Below, piece by piece: positions 19,720 through 21,371 of a stretch of 64,000 nucleotides of DNA. A program made the translations under genes and the position numbers. This DNA is from Gammaproteobacteria bacterium (lineage in GTDB: Bacteria; Pseudomonadota; Gammaproteobacteria; Enterobacterales; Psychrobiaceae): contig JABSRT010000008.1 in NCBI GenBank assembly GCA_013214945.1, positions 1-64,000 of the forward strand. Reading direction: 5' to 3'. The stretch's first letter is position 1, and every line of letters begins with the position of its first letter. The notes under the pieces were generated by a model. It had not been told where the DNA came from, did not search any database, and saw only the letters and a list, made by a program, of their open reading frames with translations.

Positions 19720-19744
19720 GCTAACGATAATCATTATCGTTAGC
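19720..19744. promoter_or_regulatory. Fur box (perfect 12-base arms)
   Basis: The arms GCTAACGATAAT and ATTATCGTTAGC flank a single central C, an almost ideal Fur operator. No classical iron-uptake gene follows. It could serve the short membrane-peptide frame to its right or an unmarked transcript on either strand. Confidence 0.75.
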
Positions 19745-19951: not shown

Positions 19952-19985
19952 TTGACAAACGGTAATGATAATGATTATTATTACC
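19952..19985 (+). promoter_or_regulatory. Promoter with overlapping Fur box, RyhB-like copy 1
   Basis: TTGACA (19952-19957), an 18-base spacer and TATTAT (19976-19981) form a good sigma-70 promoter. The spacer and -10 are covered by a 25-base imperfect palindrome (19961-19985, arms GGTAATGATAAT and ATTATTATTACC), so iron-loaded Fur should block it. Confidence 0.85.
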
Positions 19986-19987
19986 GT

Positions 19988-20180
19988 GCGTTTCAAGGAA
20001 CGTATCTCCTGACAAAGACTGTTGATTATCTATTGCGATTAACTTTCAATGTTTGAACAAATGGGAATTTGTTCAGTGCTTGGCAATAACCAAAAATCTA
20101 TCATTTTAGGTTATTAACAAGTACACACGACTATTGCTCACATTGCTATTTTAAGGCCGCATTTTGCGGCCTCTTTTTTT
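19988..20180 (+). ncRNA. ryhB: RyhB-like Fur-regulated small RNA, copy 1
   Basis: A transcript of about 193 bases from the Fur-covered promoter to an intrinsic terminator. Just before the terminator lies CACGACTATTGCTCACATTG, which matches the conserved pairing core of enterobacterial RyhB (CACGACATTGCTCACATTGC) except for one inserted T. An internal hairpin, GAACAAAT-GGGA-ATTTGTTC, lies upstream. RyhB represses iron-using proteins by base pairing with Hfq when iron is low; the same role is inferred. The length is closer to the long RyhB forms known from Vibrio than to the 90-base Escherichia coli form. A second copy lies 1.2 kb downstream. Confidence 0.88.
20155..20180 (+). terminator. Intrinsic terminator of RyhB-like copy 1
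   Basis: GGCCGC-ATTTT-GCGGCC stem loop followed by TCTTTTTTT. Confidence 0.95.
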
Positions 20181-20232
20181 GCCTATTATTTAGTTTTAGT
20201 GTCAATACCATTGTCACTATTATGACGAGCTA

Positions 20233-21132
20233 TTACTCAATGCGAATTAATTCGCGAGAATTAAACTCAACCGGGTCGCCATCAATTTGACCTTCTACAT
20301 GCACGTCAATTTCGCCGCCAAAAGGCGTAAGAGATACGTCTGTTATCACCCAATCTAAACGATCATTATTATCTTCGTCAATTTCTGAAAATACGATAGC
20401 GCCAGCGATATTTATCTCCCAGGTGAAAGCGTCTCCGTCGTTTGGATCGTCAAAGAACAATTGGCCTTGCCCTGACGTATTAAATTCGATTTTAGTGACC
20501 TATTCAACGTCGCCATCAAAGATAAACACTTTATTTTGCAGGAAGTCAGTGCTGATTACGGTTGTATTAAGTACGTCGATCACGCCATTAAAGTGCGCTT
20601 TAGCTGACTCTGTTGTGACAATATTGCCTGCGCCAATTAGGCGGATAACGTTTGCGTCTTGAACGAAATCATCGATTGGCTGGTCGAAATTGAAGTCTTC
20701 CCCCATATCGGCGTCGGCCTCTGTATGCGCCCGCGCTAAAATTTGGATGCCGTCAGTTAAATCGCCTACTTCGTCTAACGATTGCAACAGTTTAAGGATA
20801 TTAACAACTTTTCGGTTGTTAATATCATCGCTGCCTGCGAGTTCAAATGGTGTAATAAACGTTGCAGCAGGCACAGGATCAAACTTAACATGGCCAATGC
20901 TAAAGGTGATGGTTTCACCAGCTAAATAATTGAACTTACCATCGTCGTCTGTAACTCGATCTTTGATCGACTCGGTTTGATACTGAAGATTGCCAACCGG
21001 ACTGTCTATGATAAATCCGCTGGTATTTTGTCCTGAACTTTTCGCGGTGGTTGAATCATCGGAGCCGCCACATGAAACAAGCTATAGTCCCGCTAAGAGC
21101 CTTATATCAATCGAGTATTTAAATAAGTTCAA
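20233..21132 (-). pseudogene. Lipoprotein pseudogene with two in-frame TAG codons
   Basis: One frame runs from a TTG at 21132 to TAA at 20233, about 300 codons, broken only by two TAG codons. The N-terminus (NLFKYSIDIRLLAGL, then TAG, then LVSCGGSDD) is a lipoprotein signal with the first stop inside the lipobox region. The next part has SPVGNLQYQTESIKDRV and GKFNYLAGETITFSIGHVKF, a motif seen in surface lipoproteins of Alteromonadales. The second TAG (20500-20502) follows FIFDGDVE, and the frame continues as VTKIEFNTSGQGQLFF. There is no frameshift, so loss looks recent. It reads away from RyhB-like copy 2, whose Fur box may also have controlled it. Confidence 0.75.
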
Positions 21133-21140
21133 ATTAATAT

Positions 21141-21174
21141 TTGACAAACGCTAATGGTAATGATTATTATTACT
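21141..21174 (+). promoter_or_regulatory. Promoter with overlapping Fur box, RyhB-like copy 2
   Basis: TTGACA (21141-21146), an 18-base spacer and TATTAT (21165-21170), covered by the palindrome-like CTAATGGTAATGATTATTAT. The layout is identical to copy 1 with a few base changes. Confidence 0.85.
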
Positions 21175-21176
21175 GC

Positions 21177-21371
21177 GCGTTTCAAGGGACGTATCTCCTG
21201 ACAAAGAAGGTTGATAATCTAGTGATATCAACTTTCAATGTTTGAACAAATGGGAATTTGTTCAGTACTTGGCGATAACCAAGATTTTTATCGGTTTTGT
21301 TTATTAAAGGGTACACACGACTATTGCTCACATTGCTATTTTTAAGGCCGCATTTTGCGGCCTATTTTTTT
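21177..21371 (+). ncRNA. ryhB: RyhB-like Fur-regulated small RNA, copy 2
   Basis: A transcript of about 195 bases, clearly a duplicate of 19988-20180. The start (GCGTTTCAAGG), CGTATCTCCTGACAAAG, the internal GAACAAAT/ATTTGTTC hairpin, the pairing core CGACTATTGCTCACATTGCT and the terminator are all conserved, while the stretch before the core (around 21281-21309) has diverged most. Conservation of the promoter, core and terminator with drift between them argues that both copies are functional. Such doubling recalls PrrF1/PrrF2 of Pseudomonas, though the sequence is of RyhB type. Confidence 0.88.
21346..21371 (+). terminator. Intrinsic terminator of RyhB-like copy 2
   Basis: GGCCGC-ATTTT-GCGGCC stem loop followed by TATTTTTTT, identical in stem to copy 1. 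Confidence 0.95.

Follow-up and report, generated by a model that had tools for sequence, protein, structure and literature searches.

The window, the 64,000-nucleotide stretch of DNA analyzed here, carries two tandem ryhB-type small RNA genes with conserved parts, A and B, whose descent is separate from that of a third ryhB-type copy located upstream of polA in the same genome. Each unit spans ~230 bases from the TTGACA −35 box to the end of the terminator T-run (Table 1). The units are 88% identical (over a 235-nt query) and offset by 1189–1190 bases, with similarity extending ~10 bases past the unit on both sides in a repeat search. Both predicted RNAs have the same order of elements, namely a 5′ hairpin, the motif AUCUCCUGACAA, more hairpins, the core CACGACUAUUGCUCACAUUGC and a terminator consisting of AGGCCGCATTTTGCGGCCT followed by a T-run. 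The initial annotation had described two segments 1.2 kb apart sharing a TTGACA/TATTAT promoter overlapped by a Fur palindrome, an internal hairpin and a terminator, and each of these parts was located in both. At the motif level, the Fur-type palindromes overlie the spacer and the −10 box. The Fur-type motif TGATAATnATTATCA, allowing up to two mismatches, occurs at three sites in the window against 0.50 expected, a number reached in 2 of 100 shuffles. The third site belongs to a palindrome, GCTAACGATAATCATTATCGTTAGC, at 19720–19744 (two mismatches over 19725–19739), 208 bases upstream of the copy A −35 box and with no RyhB-like RNA directly downstream.

Table 1 Coordinates of the tandem ryhB-type genes, their elements and the intervening gene
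Feature	Position	Strand	Basis
Copy A, ryhB-type gene, −35 box to end of terminator T-run	19952–20180	+	RyhB model, promoter, terminator, identity
Promoter A, TTGACA-18-TATTAT	19952–19981	+	11/12 consensus bases
Fur-type palindrome over promoter A	19966–19980	+	1 mismatch to TGATAATnATTATCA
Predicted RNA A, 193 nt	19988–20180	+	Start assumed 7 nt past −10 box; fold z −4.87
5′ hairpin of A	19988–20003	+	Helix co-varies across genus
Conserved 5′ motif AUCUCCUGACAA of A	20004–20015	+	Conservation among copies
Internal hairpin of A (missing in own polA copy)	20054–20075	+	Comparison of copies, fold
RyhB-type core CACGACTATTGCTCACATTGC of A	20126–20146	+	RyhB model match
Terminator hairpin of A	20154–20172	+	Sequence
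Decayed lipoprotein-like gene between A and B	20236–21081	−	Two in-frame stops
Copy B, ryhB-type gene, −35 box to end of terminator T-run	21141–21371	+	RyhB model, promoter, terminator, identity
Promoter B, TTGACA-18-TATTAT	21141–21170	+	11/12 consensus bases
Fur-type palindrome over promoter B	21155–21169	+	2 mismatches to TGATAATnATTATCA
Predicted RNA B, 195 nt	21177–21371	+	Start assumed 7 nt past −10 box; fold z −5.00
5′ hairpin of B	21177–21192	+	Joint fold; B's own minimum-energy fold pairs the stretch differently
Conserved 5′ motif AUCUCCUGACAA of B	21193–21204	+	Conservation among copies
Internal hairpin of B	21243–21264	+	Comparison of copies, fold
RyhB-type core of B	21316–21336	+	RyhB model match
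Terminator hairpin of B	21345–21363	+	Sequence

At gathering threshold, Rfam gave no match in any family over the whole window. In E-value mode, the two best matches of the window were RyhB (RF00057) at A (40.1 bits, E = 1.6e-5) and at B (38.8 bits, E = 3.3e-5), as the initial annotation had anticipated, both under the gathering score of 55 bits. The window copies escape the Rfam cut-off, but this shortfall says as much about the limits of the model as about the genes, because Rfam, like BLAST, also missed the expressed Shewanella oneidensis RyhB, a 168-nt RNA by RACE with a Fur box, according to excerpts of the report (PMC2964681). Other weak matches (STnc390, snoR110, Trp_leader, Aar and others) lay far under their gathering scores and were judged to be chance. 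The core, CGACTATTGCTCACATTGC in both A and B, is one T longer than the enteric CGACATTGCTCACATTGC, which is present in loci of other families. A core near-identical to that of enteric bacteria had been proposed; this holds for the inner 14-mer ATTGCTCACATTGC, which is exact in both copies with the inserted T preceding it, but the full enteric 18-mer had no match in the window at up to three mismatches.

Compared with RyhB of enteric bacteria, Vibrio and Shewanella, A and B share the conserved core (TTGCTCACATTGC), an intrinsic terminator with a T-run and, as a sequence motif, a Fur box over the promoter, while the synteny upstream of polA is found only for their same-genome homologue. They also resemble the long forms of the family, such as the RNAs of S. 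oneidensis (168 nt) and V. cholerae (215 nt) described in the same excerpts (PMC2964681). They differ in the extra core base, a genus-specific 5′ hairpin and motif, the score under the gathering cut-off and the presence of three genes.

Between A and B there are 21 substitutions and two gaps. Drift of the stretch upstream of the core had been noted at the outset, and the changed columns are indeed concentrated in the middle of the RNA (20 of 108 versus 3 of 87 in the rest; Fisher p = 0.0013). Predicted folds were better than all 200 shuffles for either copy. Of the 55 base pairs in the joint fold, 10 are altered between the copies, two through changes in both partners, and none is broken. Because this joint fold had been derived from A and B themselves, the 19 middle substitutions were also placed at random, and the observed consensus energy was reached in 4 of 1000 trials. 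The core is predicted to be exposed (0.74 unpaired in A and 0.73 in B, against whole-RNA values of 0.42 and 0.40), but the 5′ motif is poorly exposed (0.38 and 0.32), which counts against its use in targeting. Across 15 copies from the genus, two of the six pairs of the 5′ hairpin show both-sided changes. Visual inspection of some relatives had hinted at a small open reading frame at the 5′ motif; this was rejected, as neither A nor B nor the own polA copy has an ATG downstream of the motif.

The third copy (G000:C6:180423-180566, ~145 nt) lacks the internal hairpin; its core and 5′ motif are identical to those of A and B, and its middle differs. Among eight relatives of the same genus, seven carry copies, and all 12 of these lie upstream of polA, with tandem pairs in G001, G003, G004, G005 and G007 and single copies in G002 and G008. 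None was found in G006, the assembly of which is 80% complete. The genus thus totals 15 copies in eight of nine genomes, and the 5′ motif reads CUCCUGAC(A or G)A in 14 of them and CUCCAAACAA in G008. A model built from the 15 copies had exactly three matches in the own genome. Among 295 genomes, in a search with filters that lose weak matches, it matched ten: eight of the genus and two weak ones outside. A contig outside the model-building set (L044) scored 116.7 bits. Together, the model matches, the preserved pairing, the genus-wide conservation and the copy upstream of polA bear out the initial description of a duplicated, RyhB-like and Fur-covered RNA gene.

The exact core 19-mer was present in nine stretches of named genome contigs. 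It also occurs in L043, a contig titled as an Actinomycetales MAG, where only model positions 81–119 match (25.7 bits), suggesting chance or a foreign contig. Downstream of the second ryhB of G007, core-like and terminator-like stretches (L037:4729-4926) look as if more copies had decayed.

The pair lies away from polA, beside a polysaccharide-export gene (SLBB). In G002, G003 and G004, the SLBB gene and its neighbor are present and the DNA beyond differs, which places the pair in a variable segment; the A/B segment is missing from all three. A and B are separated by ~960 bases containing the decayed opposite-strand gene. Its 124-amino-acid frame had no Pfam match, and no match to the gene was detected in the stretches from these three relatives. 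Carriage of the pair by a plasmid or phage was rejected, with no similar DNA in 72,556 plasmid and 50,697 phage records; the exact core 19-mer was likewise absent from viral contigs.

Over the RNAs, A and B are 89% identical to each other and 73% and 75% identical to the own polA copy. The nearest sequences to that copy are its counterparts in G003 and G004, and the same holds for the own polA gene. In a tree from 176 columns, A and B grouped together (support 95/94), the own polA copy grouped with that of G004 (90/84) and G003 joined these two (91/90). A tree with A, B and the own polA copy as one clade was rejected by an AU test performed after the first tree had been seen (p = 0.0063). On this tree and test, recent copying of the pair from the own polA gene was rejected. 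The pair stems from another ryhB lineage, either as an old paralogue that was retained or as DNA gained from a relative, and has doubled since. Tandem copies within a genome are often most similar to each other (98% in G003, 93% in G001 and 88% in G004). As an exception, the first copy of G005 is nearer to the first copy of G007 (89%) than to its own partner (83%), suggesting either an old tandem arrangement whose copies have exchanged sequence or multiple origins of the arrangement.

We consider A and B to be, probably, a ryhB-type, iron-sparing pair that raises dosage and comes from a lineage other than that of the own polA copy. In the presence of iron, Fe-Fur bound to the promoter palindrome would block transcription; in its absence, A and B would be transcribed and end at their own terminators. 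The exposed core, together with Hfq, the gene for which is present in all nine genus genomes, may then pair with mRNAs of iron-using proteins, in the own genome best at the start-codon regions of sdhC and acnB. Such pairing would stop translation and spare iron. The pair would add to the ryhB upstream of polA, most likely by supplying more RNA to act on shared targets. Dosage and target division had both been put forward initially; with core and 5′ motif letter-identical, division between A and B is not favored, and the shared conserved pairing motifs make dosage the likelier role. For S. oneidensis, part of one report (PMC5826389) gives a RyhB length of ~127 nt and describes repression of cytochromes by this RNA together with Hfq. 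According to excerpts of another (PMC2964681), RyhB overexpression in S. oneidensis left sdhA and acnA unchanged.

Pairing was predicted for sdhC, sodB and acnB, picked as classical RyhB targets, and for napA, selected on account of a complete 5′-motif complement in the G003 leader, which makes the G003 napA value circular. Leaders were obtained from eight of nine genomes each for sdhC and sodB, from six for acnB and from five for napA; those from orthologues are not independent. As controls served 154 leaders free of pattern-found loci, taken from ATG-started frames of at least 150 codons and including some mutual orthologues; numbers of controls pairing as well are given in brackets. With sdhC, at a predicted site spanning the GUG start, the core reached −21.0 to −22.3 kcal/mol in six genomes (0–2), against a weaker −17.5 in the own genome (12) and −16.2 in G003 (18). 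For acnB, values were −17.7 in the own genome (12), −22.4 in G003 (0) and −17.9 in G004 (11), and weak in G005 (−11.9; 89), G006 (−13.8; 46) and G007 (−9.1; 132). Core pairing with sodB was poor in the own genome (−8.1; 138) and ranged elsewhere from −19.7 in G004 (4) and −19.6 in G005 (4) through −16.3 in G002 (17), −15.7 in both G006 and G007 (21) and −14.2 in G008 (40) to −11.9 in G001 (89); that with napA was unremarkable (40–103). Of 2000 shuffled cores, 35 were as good for sdhC, 24 for acnB, 1724 for sodB and 799 for napA in the own genome. Of the leaders suggested at the outset, those of sdhC and acn pair only moderately with the core in this genome, and that of sodB pairs poorly.

For the 5′ motif, 2–7 controls matched the sodB pairing in each of eight genomes, with an exact run of 7–9 within 30 bases before the start; among controls, a run of 7 occurred in 1 of 154 and none was longer. 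Pairing with napA reached −14.5 in the own genome (2), −18.5 in G003 (0), −15.5 in G004 (1), −12.5 in G006 (7) and −12.6 in G007 (7), and that with own sdhC and acnB was unremarkable (79 and 87). Shuffled 5′ motifs were as good in 8 of 2000 cases for sodB, 8 for napA, 947 for sdhC and 1600 for acnB in the own genome. The 5′-motif complement TTGTCAGGAGA had 28 matches in nine genomes, nine of them the RNA genes themselves, versus none for the reversed pattern. Three of the 19 non-self matches lie just before an open frame of at least 140 codons, encoding NapA in G003 and, as named by eye, an aldehyde-dehydrogenase-like protein in G002 and a small repeat-protein-like product in G004. The exact core complement GTGAGCAATAG had 34 matches, 15 of them RNA genes; the 19 others, none of them in the own genome, are no excess over the 25 of the reversed pattern. 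In G008, the variant CUCCAAACAA has no compensating change in the sodB leader. CUCCU is also the ribosomal anti-Shine–Dalgarno sequence, and, because of this resemblance, any strong ribosome site matches the 5′ motif. We advance only tentatively, and with the odds against it, that each RNA has two targeting sites, the core for the sdhC and acnB start codons and AUCUCCUGACAA for the extended Shine–Dalgarno UCAGGAGA of sodB and napA, in a pair that is a second ryhB lineage beside the native one. Statistical support for this bold second-site proposal is moderate, and the arguments against it are real. If the 5′ motif does pair with targets, a single iron-sparing RNA would have two distinct pairing sites.

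A division of labor, with A, B and the polA copy addressing different targets or responding to different iron levels, appears unlikely. It would fit the differing middle, the lack of the internal hairpin in the polA copy and the Fur motif mismatches (one in A, two in B), and has a precedent in Salmonella RfrA/RfrB; core and 5′ motif, however, are identical in all three copies. Excerpts on RfrA/RfrB and on Yersinia RyhB1/RyhB2 (PMC4211561) likewise describe more than one RyhB per genome with a conserved core and a diverged rest, but as two distant genes rather than a tandem pair plus a distant third. That A and B are functionless leftovers is highly improbable: they sit in a variable segment next to a decayed gene, and a third copy exists in the genome, yet promoter, motifs, terminator and base pairing are preserved despite the diverged middle, and decay hit the neighboring gene, not the RNAs. 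The initial comparison with PrrF1/PrrF2 of Pseudomonas, tandem Fur-type RNAs of similar function in the excerpted source (PMC4211561), holds for the layout but not for the family, as the copies scored 35.3 and 31.2 bits with the PrrF model (RF00444) against a gathering score of 90 and membership was rejected. An additional PrrH-like read-through RNA with its own role is hardly credible given this score, the strong terminator on each copy and the ~960 bases with a decayed opposite-strand gene between them.

Tandem ryhB copies with a Fur box each are described for Shewanella amazonensis in excerpts of one report (PMC2964681); likened by description, the window pair differs in its ~1.2-kb spacing, its location off polA and the third copy elsewhere. 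No paper treating Psychrobium and RyhB together was found in a literature search that mostly covered papers outside subscription. The regulator represented by A and B is of a known kind; what is unusual is how many copies there are and where they lie, and the new details are the extra pair and a second conserved, candidate pairing motif. Holding ryhB genes of two lineages, this genome offers a natural test of why iron-sparing RNAs stay multi-copy. Several marine lineages of the order have more than one ryhB, with five tandem pairs among the eight genus relatives and, in a second family (f2), 3, 2, 2, 2, 1, 1, 1 and 3 copies in the eight genomes covered.

Matches to ryhB upstream of polA were also found in families f2, f13, f21 and f25 of the order; the polA motif often went unseen in loci with short flanks and was visible in 9 of the 30 loci L052–L081. 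We take polA to adjoin VC0106 and SO4716. Excerpts of an earlier study place ryhB downstream of these two genes (PMC2964681). In f2, one to three ryhB copies stand in a row upstream of polA, with a spacing of ~361–379 bases in multi-copy loci, and an f13 genome carries two copies, the second with a changed core, CGACTTTGCTCACATTGC (L082–L089 and L091 for the two families together). Apart from the RNA genes, five genus genomes, G002, G005, G001, G006 and G007 (L113, L117, L126, L127 and L137), share conserved sequence around GGGAGTAATGCTTGTCAGGAGAA..GGCAAGAG that does not precede a long frame.
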